Shown here piece by piece: positions 31,209-49,458 of a stretch of 64,000 nt of DNA (within the stretch, counting starts at the first letter, position 1; every line of letters starts with the position of its first letter). The position numbers were made by a program, and so were the translations under genes. The notes under the pieces were generated by a model. That model had not been told where the DNA came from, made no database searches, and saw nothing but the letters and a program-made list of their open reading frames with translations. The stretch is taken from the NCBI GenBank assembly GCA_040878325.1, contig JBBDMM010000016.1, forward strand, positions 132,413 through 196,412, written 5' to 3'. Origin of the DNA: Acidimicrobiia bacterium. Lineage in GTDB: Bacteria > Actinomycetota > Acidimicrobiia > Spongiisociales > UBA11373.

Positions 31209-31244
31209 AGACACGCCCCCGGGCCAGAGACCGGGGGCGTGTCT
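31209..31244 (+). terminator. Strong intrinsic terminator after the P-loop gene
   Basis: A perfect 14-bp stem (AGACACGCCCCCGG with CCGGGGGCGTGTCT) and an 8-base loop are followed by GTTTGG. It starts 28 bases after the stop codon at 31181. The T-run is short but the stem is very stable. Confidence 0.75.
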
Positions 31245-45503: not shown

Positions 45504-45755
45504 ATGACCACCAACATCTACGTGGGGAATCTCACGTTCGACACCGATTCCGCTCAGCTGGAGTCCCTGTTCTCCCAGCACGGTCAGGTGACCAAGGCCC
45601 AGGTCGTGATGGATCGCGACACCGGCCGCTCGCGCGGTTTCGGGTTCGTCGAGATGGCCTCGTCCGACGAGGCTCAGAAGGCGATCGATTCCCTCAACGG
45701 CAAGGACGTCGGCGGGCGTGCGCTCACCGTCAACCTGGCCAAAGAACGCCGTTAG
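45504..45755 (+). CDS. Single-RRM RNA-binding protein
   Basis: Starting at ATG 45504 behind AAGAGGAGCAAAG, it has 83 residues and one RNA-recognition motif: RNP2 is IYVGNL and RNP1 is RGFGFVEM. The length and closing AKERR match bacterial Rbp proteins, which are abundant RNA chaperones often induced by cold. A long non-coding leader precedes it and a strong terminator follows. Confidence 0.95.
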   Translation: MTTNIYVGNLTFDTDSAQLESLFSQHGQVTKAQVVMDRDTGRSRGFGFVEMASSDEAQKAIDSLNGKDVGGRALTVNLAKERR

Positions 45756-45830
45756 GCGATAACACTCCCGAGCACGGGATTCGCGGGGCGAAGGCCCGAC
45801 GCCAACCCCGTTGCTCGGTCAGAAATGAGG

Positions 45831-45857
45831 AAGGACCGGCCACAGGGCCGGTCCTTT
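45831..45857 (+). terminator. Intrinsic terminator after the RRM gene
   Basis: AAGGACCGGCC and GGCCGGTCCTT form a perfect 11-bp stem around ACAG, followed by TCTTCATT. It starts 76 bases after the stop codon. The A-rich and T-rich flanks make it a good rho-independent terminator. Confidence 0.85.
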
Positions 45858-45922
45858 CTTCATTCGAAAGCTGGGCTTCATCGATGTGAGCCCCATTATC
45901 TGCCAAAAGGAGAGAGCTTCAC

Positions 45923-45995
45923 ATAAGGGCCGGAGAGGTGTATCTTTCCTTCGCTACCACTAGTTGGTAGCCCGCCCAGACCCCGCGGCCCTTAT
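45923..45995 (+). promoter_or_regulatory. Candidate three-way-junction RNA leader of the GAF-GGDEF-EAL gene
   Basis: The closing stem is perfect over 10 bp (ATAAGGGCCG at 45923-45932 with CGGCCCTTAT at 45986-45995). Inside are hairpin A (45933-45937 with 45944-45948) and hairpin B, a perfect 7-bp stem (GCTACCA at 45953-45959 with TGGTAGC at 45965-45971). The structure ends 18 bases before the GTG start and just before GGAGGTG. It lacks the conserved bases of the GEMM-I c-di-GMP riboswitch, so the ligand, if any, is unknown. Confidence 0.5.
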
Positions 45996-46013
45996 TCGGC
46001 GCGGAGGTGCACG

Positions 46014-47954
46014 GTGGTTTCGGACCGGCGACTCTCTGAGCTTCTGGGCGAGTTCGCCCGGACTCTGATGACGGACTATCCGATTCAGTCGATCCTCGAT
46101 CACCTCGTGCGTCGCATCGTCGAAGTGCTGCCGATCGGCTCTGCCAGCGTGACGCTGATCTCGGAGACAGGGGAAACCAGGCATGTGGCCGCCTCCGACG
46201 AGTCGGCGCTGCGCTTCGTGGAACTCCAGACCGAGAACGGGCAGGGGCCTTGCATCGCGGCCTTCCGGACCGGTGAGACCGTCGCCATCCCCGACCTCCG
46301 CCACGACACTCGGTTCCCCGAATTTTCGACGCGGGCAATCGAAGAGGGGCTCGCCGCGGTTTTCAGCTTTCCTCTCCGGGACTACGACCACAGGCTCGGG
46401 GCTCTCGACCTGTACCGGACGACGGCCGGCACGATGGACGCCGAGGCGATGGCGGCAGCCCAGACGCTTGCGGATGTGACCACCGCCTACCTCCTCAACG
46501 CGCAGGCGCGGGCGGATCTGGAGGAGGCGTCGGAGCGCGATCGCCACCGATCACTCCATGACCCGCTGACTGGCCTGCCAAACCGCACCCTCCTCGTCGA
46601 GCGCCTCGACCACGCGATGCTCCGCTGCCGGCGTTCGAAAAAGATGGTTGCCGTGTTCTACACCGACCTCGACGGGTTCAAGTCGATAAACGACTCTTAC
46701 GGGCACCAGATCGGGGACCAGTTGCTGGTTGCAGTCGCCGAACGGCTGACGAATCTGCTCCGACCCGGAGATACGGTCGCGCGCTTGTCGGGAGACGAGT
46801 TCGTCATCCTCTGCGAGGATCTCGACGAGGCCGTGCAGGCGGAACCGCTCGCCGAACGCATCGGTGCGGCGATGCGCGAGCCCTTCGTAGTGTCCGGCAC
46901 CCAGTTGCATGTCAGCGCCAGCGTCGGTATCGCCTTTGCCGGCCTCGCCGACGACATCCCCCACTCGGTTCTGGATCAGGCGGACGCCGCGATGTACGAG
47001 GCGAAGCGGCAAGGGGGAGGACGTCACGCCATCATCGACCTGCGTGACCACCGCGTAGTCAGTCACCGGGCGCGCCTGAATCAAGACCTCCGCGGCGCGG
47101 TAAGGCGGGGTGAGATGGAGGTCCACTACCAGCCGATCGTGGCCACCGGGAGCGGACAAGTCACCGGGGCCGAAGCCCTGCTCCGCTGGCACCATCCGGC
47201 TTTCGGGATGGTGCATCCCGACGTGATGATCCCATTGGCGGAACAGTCGGGCCTCATCGGCGACATCGGTCGGTGGGTAATGGAGCAGGCGTGCCGCGAC
47301 CGCAAGCGTTGGGTGGGCCAAACCTCCCGGGAGGATCTTGGAGTATCGGTGAACATCTCGATCCACCAGCTGATGGCGCCGGGCTTCGCCAGCTTGGTGT
47401 CGACCGTATTGTCCGACACCGAGACACAGCCAAATCTGATGACACTCGAGGTGACCGAGAGCGTCCTCGTCTCCGACCGGGAGCGCGCCCTGACCGCCCT
47501 CGTCGGCCTCAAGAACATCGGCGTGGCTCTGGCACTCGACGACTTTGGGACCGGCCAATCGTCGCTCAGCCACCTGAAGCACTTCCCGATGGACACGGTG
47601 AAGATCGACCGGGGGTTCATCGGCGACCTGGAGACAAGCCTTGCGAGTCGCCTGATCGTCAGGGCCGTAGTGGGTTTGGCTCATGGCCTGAACATGGCCG
47701 TCGTGGCCGAAGGAGTGGAGACGGCGGGGCAGCGGATGAGGGTCGCCGAGATGAGCTGTGACTTCAGCCAGGGCTACCTGTTCGCCCGTCCCCGGAGCGC
47801 CGAAGACCTCAGCGCCCTCCTCGGCGATCGGCAGACGCTCCCATTGCGACGCACGGCACCAGCGTTTTCCCAACTGGCGGCAGCAAGCCCGGGTACACCC
47901 GGCCACACGGAGCACTGGAAGGGAGCCCGAACCGAGGGGCGCGGTGACCAATGA
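46014..47954 (+). CDS. GAF-GGDEF-EAL cyclic di-GMP signalling protein
   Basis: This 646-residue protein has a GAF domain (about 20-165, with NGQGPCIAAFRTGE), a GGDEF domain (about 180-340) whose signature is SGDEF at 259-263, and an EAL domain (about 355-605). The EAL domain has an intact EALLR at 387-391, NISIHQ, EVTES, DDFGTG and the catalytic lysine in VKIDRGF. The EAL phosphodiesterase site looks functional. The first G of GGDEF is Ser, so diguanylate cyclase activity is uncertain. The GTG start is at 46014 after GGAGGTGCACG. It overlaps the next gene by 11 bases. Confidence 0.92.
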   Translation: MVSDRRLSELLGEFARTLMTDYPIQSILDHLVRRIVEVLPIGSASVTLISETGETRHVAASDESALRFVELQTENGQGPCIAAFRTGETVAIPDLRHDTRFPEFSTRAIEEGLAAVFSFPLRDYDHRLGALDLYRTTAGTMDAEAMAAAQTLADVTTAYLLNAQARADLEEASERDRHRSLHDPLTGLPNRTLLVERLDHAMLRCRRSKKMVAVFYTDLDGFKSINDSYGHQIGDQLLVAVAERLTNLLRPGDTVARLSGDEFVILCEDLDEAVQAEPLAERIGAAMREPFVVSGTQLHVSASVGIAFAGLADDIPHSVLDQADAAMYEAKRQGGGRHAIIDLRDHRVVSHRARLNQDLRGAVRRGEMEVHYQPIVATGSGQVTGAEALLRWHHPAFGMVHPDVMIPLAEQSGLIGDIGRWVMEQACRDRKRWVGQTSREDLGVSVNISIHQLMAPGFASLVSTVLSDTETQPNLMTLEVTESVLVSDRERALTALVGLKNIGVALALDDFGTGQSSLSHLKHFPMDTVKIDRGFIGDLETSLASRLIVRAVVGLAHGLNMAVVAEGVETAGQRMRVAEMSCDFSQGYLFARPRSAEDLSALLGDRQTLPLRRTAPAFSQLAAASPGTPGHTEHWKGARTEGRGDQ

Positions 47955-48672
47955 CGCTCGCGACCGGGCGGCGCGCGTCGCCGTGGCGTTCGAACAACAT
48001 CGCACCGCGAACCCGCCTGGCAGCGTATGCGTGGCAACCGCCGAGGTGATGCAGGTTTCATCTGCCGGCGTCACGCTGATGAGCGGCCGACACAGCGGCC
48101 CGGTGTGCTTCTCCGATCGACGAGCCGGCGCCCTCGACGAGTTGCAGTTCTCGCTCGGCGAGGGGCCGTGCCAGGACGCCTATGCCAGCCGTGCGCCTGT
48201 GTTCGAACCCGACCTCTACTCGGCAGGCCAGAGTCGATGGCCCAACTTTGCACCCCTCGCCATCGAGCTGGGGACTCGAGGCGTGTTTGCGTTCCCTCTC
48301 CACAGCGGCCGGAGGTGCATTGGGGTACTCACCCTCTACCAGAACGCCGCAGGCGACCTTTCCCGCGACCAGATCGCCGACAGCCTGTGGGTGGTAGACG
48401 CCCTCACCGAGTCGATCCTCACCCCCCACACGACCGAGCAGCCAACTCTCTCCACCCACGAACGCCCTGCTTCGATCGCGCACCGGGCCGAGTTTCACCA
48501 GGCGACGGGAATGGTGGCAGTACAACTCGATATCTCCGTCGCCGACGCTTCCGTGCGCATCCGGGCGCACGCCTACGCAACATCCCGATCGCTCGCCGCG
48601 GTGGCCCAGGACATCGTGGCACGGCGCCTCCGCCTCGGCGATGACACGCCACCCGGGGGATCGAATGACTAG
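47944..48672 (+). CDS. GAF-ANTAR regulator
   Basis: The GTG at 47944 (VTNDARDRAARVAVAFEQH) overlaps the GGDEF-EAL gene. The 242 residues contain a GAF domain (about 10-165, with GEGPCQDAYASRAPVFEPDL) and a C-terminal ANTAR-type three-helix segment (RAEFHQATGMVAVQLDISVADASVRIRAH broken as helix-loop-helix) expected to bind hairpin RNA for antitermination. It is co-transcribed with the c-di-GMP protein and is followed by a similar gene. Confidence 0.85.
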   Translation: MTNDARDRAARVAVAFEQHRTANPPGSVCVATAEVMQVSSAGVTLMSGRHSGPVCFSDRRAGALDELQFSLGEGPCQDAYASRAPVFEPDLYSAGQSRWPNFAPLAIELGTRGVFAFPLHSGRRCIGVLTLYQNAAGDLSRDQIADSLWVVDALTESILTPHTTEQPTLSTHERPASIAHRAEFHQATGMVAVQLDISVADASVRIRAHAYATSRSLAAVAQDIVARRLRLGDDTPPGGSND

Positions 48673-48702
48673 TCTTGGGTCGCCTGGAAGAGGCAGGGAG
48701 GA

Positions 48703-49458
48703 ATGAAGCGAGAGCAACTCGTCGTCGATGTCTTTGTTCAACTCGCCGACTCGCTGGTTGACGACTTCGACATCATCGACCTGCTCACCGTGCTCTCGGA
48801 CGGATGCGTCCGGCTCGACCCCGCCGACGCGGCCGGGATTCTCCTCGCCGACGAGGACAGCAATCTGCGAGTCATGGCCGCCTCCAGCGAGCGAGCCCGT
48901 CTACTCGAGCTGTTCCAGTTACAGAACCACGAGGGACCCTGCCTGGAGGCGTATTCGACCGGCCAACCCGTGACGCACACCGACCTCGCCAACTCGGTGG
49001 ACCGATGGCCGCACTTCGGCCCCGAGGCTGTGTCCGCCGGGTTCGGCTCGGTTCATGCGATCCCCCTGCGGCTCCGGACCATCGTCATCGGGGCGCTCAA
49101 TCTGTTCGCTGCCGAAGCCAGACCGCTGGACGAACCGAATGCACACCTTGCGCGCGCCCTGGCCGATGTCGCCAGCATCGCCATCCTCCAGGACCAAGCC
49201 GCTCGAGAGGCGGTGCTGCGGGCCGGCCAACTCCAGTACGCCCTCGACAGCAGGGTGGCCATCGAACAGGCCAAGGGGATGGTGGCCGAACGGACCAAGA
49301 CCGACATGGACGAGGCGTTCCGGATCCTTCGCAAGTACGCCCGCGACTCTCGCCGCCACCTCAGCGCGGTCGCGACGGATATCGCCGCAGGAACCGTGCC
49401 GCTCGACGAGGTCATATCAGCGACCGTGCTGTCGGAATCCGACCACAAGAACGGTTAG
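48703..49458 (+). CDS. GAF-ANTAR regulator, second copy
   Basis: This 251-residue protein starts at ATG 48703 behind AGGGAGGA. A GAF domain covers about 5-165 (NHEGPCLEAYSTGQPVTHTD) and the ANTAR domain about 175-235 (LDSRVAIEQAKGMVAERTKT, then DMDEAFRILRKYARDSRRHL). ANTAR domains bind paired RNA hairpins and prevent termination. The GAF ligand is unknown. It is the stronger ANTAR match of the two and lies 30 bases after the first. Confidence 0.92.
   Translation: MKREQLVVDVFVQLADSLVDDFDIIDLLTVLSDGCVRLDPADAAGILLADEDSNLRVMAASSERARLLELFQLQNHEGPCLEAYSTGQPVTHTDLANSVDRWPHFGPEAVSAGFGSVHAIPLRLRTIVIGALNLFAAEARPLDEPNAHLARALADVASIAILQDQAAREAVLRAGQLQYALDSRVAIEQAKGMVAERTKTDMDEAFRILRKYARDSRRHLSAVATDIAAGTVPLDEVISATVLSESDHKNG

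Follow-up and report, generated by a model that had tools for sequence, protein, structure and literature searches.

Does the leader of the GAF-GGDEF-EAL gene at this locus contain a structured RNA, and which part of it is conserved? The gene lies at 46014..47954 on the forward strand of the window, the 64,000-nucleotide stretch of DNA that we analyzed. It starts with GTG and encodes 646 aa with Pfam GAF, GGDEF and EAL domains above cut-offs. For the region in front of it, the first-pass annotation had proposed a riboswitch-like or protein-bound leader folded as a three-way junction, in which a perfect 10-bp closing stem encloses two hairpins. The arms of this stem, ATAAGGGCCG at 45923-45932 and CGGCCCTTAT at 45986-45995, are indeed exact, and 18 bases separate 45995 from the GTG at 46014. 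The enclosed span is 53 nt rather than 54 nt. One of the two hairpins is present as a perfect 7-bp stem, GCTACCA-CTAGT-TGGTAGC at 45953-45971, and the second is a weak stem containing G-U.

Stems of this size are frequent in the window, which contains 63 perfect inverted repeats of at least 9 bp (spacers 3-100), of which 26 are at least 10 bp. The 10-bp stem taken alone is no more than chance expectation. The two longest inverted repeats of the window are a 14-bp hairpin with an 8-nt loop at 31209-31244 and a 16-bp repeat with its arms 81 nt apart at 968-1080. The folding energy of the region has a z of -1.45, with 17 of 200 shuffles folding equally well, and the fold around the flagged stretch is predicted to be only mildly stable. 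The 10-bp stem is absent from the predicted fold of 45900-46020, and its pair probability is 0.001-0.004 when the RNA is assumed to start at 45923. The energy of the junction is -23.7 kcal/mol (45923-45995); the minimum for 45923-46030 is -46.7, with the stem absent.

We then compared 32 upstream regions of the GAF-GGDEF-EAL gene, with the window among them. L163 and L165 were left out, having failed the filter of 48% identity plus a start by residue 12; L165 has a 10-nt-loop variant and L163 has nothing. Matches G422:C77 and G542:C117 were excluded because they begin at contig edges. In 16 rows selected on motif score, the anchored columns gave a sharp-edged conserved block of 17 nt with flat flanks and the consensus CCGY-CYRGACCNY-GCGG. 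In the window this core hairpin lies at 45972..45988 on the forward strand, where CCGC (45972-45975) and GCGG (45985-45988) flank the loop CCAGACCCC (45976-45984). It was called from conservation, covariation and RNAalifold. A second conserved signal, about 26 nt upstream of the block in the same 16 rows, matches the end of a -10 box.

To avoid circularity, rows for the further tests were selected by the loop pattern C-Y-N-G-W-C-C alone. The 9-nt loop has the consensus C-Y-N-G-W-C-C-N-N, mostly CCAGACC. It was present in 23 of the 32 leaders, where the matches concentrate 34-48 nt ahead of the start, and its presence was scattered over the gene tree. The nine leaders without it are L170, L235, L238, L242, L244, L245, L260, L261 and L312; L235, scored in this way, has the stem and a single loop change. 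Five fresh orthologs were added once the motif had been fixed; four of them carry the loop, and two of these four have the re-paired stems CTAT/GTAG and CTAC/GTGG. Within the final 100 nt of the 32 rows, the loop pattern matched four times in reverse orientation, never with the full stem. By these alignments, the orientation and position of the core are fixed relative to the gene start.

Pairs were first counted on 15 rows selected by the entire motif, and this count yielded no usable covariation. Usable covariation came with the loop-only selection plus the fresh rows. The flanking 4+4 nt, unused in row selection, paired in 87 of 92 cells compared with 72.3±2.4 when the 3' arms were permuted. 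When distinct stems were counted (n=12), 43 of 48 cells paired, compared with 31.4±2.8 in the permutations (p = 5e-5). Against shuffled alignments, stem cells were paired at 94.6% versus 78.8±2.2%, double-change cells numbered 11 versus 1.7±1.2, and the covariation score was 0.549 versus 0.226±0.039, each with 0 of 500 shuffles reaching the observed value. Slid registers scored at most 0.169. The shuffles leave relatedness in, the register slides keep relatedness unchanged, and the tree of the gene is close to a star. RNAalifold, with no structure supplied, returned the same four pairs of the core from a 19-row leader alignment. These comparisons give good support to a small RNA hairpin that is conserved in this leader, and we consider its existence very probable.

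A candidate promoter was found upstream of the core. The candidate -35 box TTCACA (45918..45923) and the candidate -10 box TATCTT (45941..45946), both on the forward strand and separated by a 17-nt spacer, form a sigma-70-type match at 9/12 positions. This is the only such match in 45760-46100, where shuffles expect 0.1. Of 23 orthologous leaders, 19 have the pattern TANNNT beginning 14-36 nt upstream of the core. Its density before the core is 22 matches in 529 positions, versus 1 in 2469 farther upstream. We infer a transcription start at about 45953. With a start near this position, the 5' arm of the 10-bp stem would be left untranscribed and the core would be transcribed; the arm, which lies within the promoter and is unconserved in orthologs, probably belongs to the promoter. 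The core fits what a translational cis-regulatory leader should contain, a conserved RNA structure with covariation in the untranslated 5' region, and 19 of 23 rows have a promoter box ahead of it.

The same leaders bear on the three-way junction. We found no excess of stems between -62 to -25 and the 3' arm zone in 18 of 19 motif rows, leader L166 being omitted from this test because its upstream sequence is missing. With the window included, p was 0.30 and 0.10; without it, p was 0.67 and 0.59. The exact 10-bp and 7-bp stems speak for the junction, and ortholog L246 shows a 6-bp match in the corresponding zone. Set against these are the lack of stem excess in the orthologs, the pair probability of about 0.004, the promoter across the 5' arm, and the conserved core, which competes for the 3' arm. 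As this 3' arm overlaps the 3' arm of the core hairpin, the two structures cannot form together. The junction was rejected: the orthologous upstream regions lose the pairing, so it is refuted as a conserved structure, and that it is a structured leader in its own right is extremely improbable. Of the original proposal, a conserved covarying sense-strand RNA element near the ribosome-binding site stands, whereas the three-way junction does not. The case illustrates that a striking long stem can be chance while a small neighbouring element is functional.

The 7-bp hairpin (45953..45971, forward strand, 5-nt loop CTAGT) would sit at the very 5' end of the mRNA and is specific to the genome of the window. 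It is unusually stable for its composition, with 0.007 of shuffles equally low in energy. In the orthologs it was not common to any leader, either as a sequence or as a position-fixed stem. An additional 5' hairpin as a common feature was likewise rejected as weak, since only 4 of 23 rows gave p < 0.05.

The block could also act as DNA. A near-dyad of 17 bp (CCGC-N9-GCGG) close behind the predicted promoter would suit a transcription factor bound just past the transcription start, and a DNA palindrome may likewise be kept by paired changes. However, departures from Watson-Crick pairing in the 23 rows comprised nine G·U cells and no A·C cell (the rows are related, so the cells are not independent). 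DNA symmetry does not predict this asymmetry, which favours a sense-strand RNA over a symmetric DNA site. The conserved centre is also non-palindromic, orientation and distance to the gene start are fixed, there are almost no other sites in the 11 genomes searched with the pattern, and no regulator gene recurs nearby. We regard the operator as an unlikely reading. Small-RNA target sites are typically short, invariant, accessible and close to a Shine-Dalgarno sequence, and the block resembles such a site. Pairing of a small RNA with the exposed loop would, however, have no need of a covarying stem, and recurrence before one gene only would be unusual, which makes a small-RNA target very unlikely.

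As an RNA, the core may act through the Shine-Dalgarno sequence GGAGG at 46003..46007 on the forward strand. In minimum-energy folds, a competing hairpin on the same strand (45980..46008) pairs 45980-45987 with 46000-46008 and covers the Shine-Dalgarno. The minimum fold of the window has a further helix between 45972-45976 and 46013-46017, which covers the GTG. Most rows have a closed default fold; L315, L173 and L313 show little or no Shine-Dalgarno pairing. We exchanged the 3' parts between orthologs and compared the summed pairing of the core with the ribosome-binding region, which was 7.26 in the own leaders versus 5.37±0.51 in the swapped ones. The p value was printed as 0.0, yet the maximum of 20000 permutations lies above 7.26. 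On 17 clean rows p was 0.001, with a 5'-part control at p = 0.90. Simpler measures of loop or core against Shine-Dalgarno gave p = 0.01-0.13, and about a dozen such tests were tried altogether. Support for predicted pairing of the core with its own Shine-Dalgarno region is therefore good but not conclusive.

The core hairpin itself is weak in the folding model, and no row has it as the predicted default. Its probability was 0.00-0.03 in all 23 folds, and it lay 1.7-13.3 kcal/mol above the minimum. Since it is not the default, a stabilising factor or co-transcriptional folding must be assumed. We propose that the leader would be transcribed from a start just upstream of the core, about 45953 in the window. 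In the naked leader, the core would be paired to the Shine-Dalgarno (in the window to the GTG as well), and translation would stay low. A putative factor, for which a protein is likelier than a small molecule, would recognise the loop and hold the core as its own hairpin, which would open the ribosome-binding site. The hairpin probably helps to control when the gene is translated. That the leader is a short cis-acting translational RNA element in which the core switches the ribosome-binding site has, on these folds, about an even chance of being correct.

The pairing above the swapped controls and the closed default fold of most rows would equally suit a core that is a mere anti-Shine-Dalgarno strand, damping translation constitutively or with temperature and needing no trans factor. 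The Shine-Dalgarno regions vary, however, and pairing with them would not account for the near-invariant loop; the covarying stem, which is incompatible with simultaneous Shine-Dalgarno pairing, would stay unexplained. We judge such a damper improbable.

We searched for the element at other genes. The exact core pattern gave 11 matches in 11 genomes, seven of them before the GAF-GGDEF-EAL gene. The off-gene matches L224 (by the ORF list), L218 and L228 (both by eye) read as coding. One further exact core match, L226 1501-1516 (G201:C93:3619-3634) in a genome that has an ortholog, is unexplained; no forward-strand ORF of at least 90 aa follows it. The covariance model R1 matched 208 of 397 genomes at E up to 1, and matches at this level are weak. 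Among the 30 listed R1 loci, four show a -10 box and a start codon, all of them at the GAF-GGDEF-EAL gene. A regulon was rejected, as these 30 loci include no additional site that has both promoter and start. Judged by these searches, the element is one that goes with the GAF-GGDEF-EAL gene only. Upstream coding, such as a uORF, was rejected because the distances from core to start are not multiples of three.

We compared the element with known systems. Rfam gave no match at gathering level for the window or for this leader in 20 ortholog loci, and a search of 45780-46100 at E up to 5 was also negative. Two tRNAs were hit in the ortholog loci, both outside the leader. Like the c-di-GMP-I and -II riboswitches (GEMM), the element lies in the leader of a c-di-GMP turnover gene; the core is far smaller and GEMM identity was rejected, since the Rfam covariance models are unmatched here. 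In translational riboswitches of the preQ1-I type, a small hairpin has a C-rich loop able to pair with a downstream Shine-Dalgarno. The core resembles these and differs in sequence, in gene context and in having alternative rather than simultaneous pairing, with no Rfam match. The actinobacterial ANTAR-target RNAs, as described in PMC8164766, are also short leader hairpins, which may overlap the ribosome-binding site and influence translation, and GAF-ANTAR genes lie downstream of the element here. According to that source, the ANTAR targets have two stem-loops joined by a 2-25 nt linker, with hexanucleotide loops carrying A1 and G4. In contrast, the core is a single conserved stem-loop, the 7-bp hairpin is absent from orthologs, and the loops are the 9-nt CCAGACCCC and the 5-nt CTAGT. 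Identity with ANTAR targets was rejected, as both stem-loop number and loop size disagree. The suggestion that the downstream ANTAR proteins are binders found no support, the 9-nt loop being no ANTAR hexaloop and no neighbour family besides the gene's own recurring in at least three of 21 neighbourhoods. The Pseudomon-GGDEF motif, a candidate RNA, likewise takes its name from GGDEF genes; PMC2864571 lists it for Pseudomonas only and marks it as ambiguous as RNA, which sets it apart from the core by description. Most subscription papers aside, no such motif was found described in the literature.

A new gene-specific class of regulatory RNA, in which an aptamer-like hairpin of minimal size (4 bp, 9-nt loop) would govern how a c-di-GMP enzyme is translated in several orders of one class, is possible, if rather doubtful. 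If real, it would be either among the smallest metabolite riboswitches or a site for an RNA-binding protein. In the latter case, the binder could be the GAF-GGDEF-EAL enzyme itself, acting on its own mRNA. Little is known of post-transcriptional control of c-di-GMP enzymes outside well-studied proteobacteria, and a clearly covarying short element offers a testable handle, with four base pairs and one loop to mutate and a binder to seek.

Within the order of the window's genome (138 genomes), the GAF-GGDEF-EAL ortholog occurs in that genome only, and other matches have 27-40% identity. Orthologs at about 55-65% identity over the GAF part were found in two further orders within the class. A scan of genome contigs for orthologs found distant GGDEF-EAL proteins only. 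A GAF-ANTAR gene pair lies directly downstream of the GAF-GGDEF-EAL gene (window 46014-49458), and the same-family genomes G007 and G009 retain this pair without the GAF-GGDEF-EAL gene. The pair without the gene in these two genomes, together with the gene in one of 138 genomes of the order, suggests that the gene arrived by transfer together with its leader.

No family besides the gene's own recurred in at least three of 21 neighbourhoods, and a local regulator was rejected on this ground. A gene for a small RRM-type RNA-binding protein lies just upstream (45504-45755); an RRM gene was absent from the 13 ortholog loci searched. The RRM gene of the window is followed on the forward strand by a terminator-like perfect 11-bp stem with a 4-nt loop (45831..45856), which scored as terminator-like on the reverse strand.
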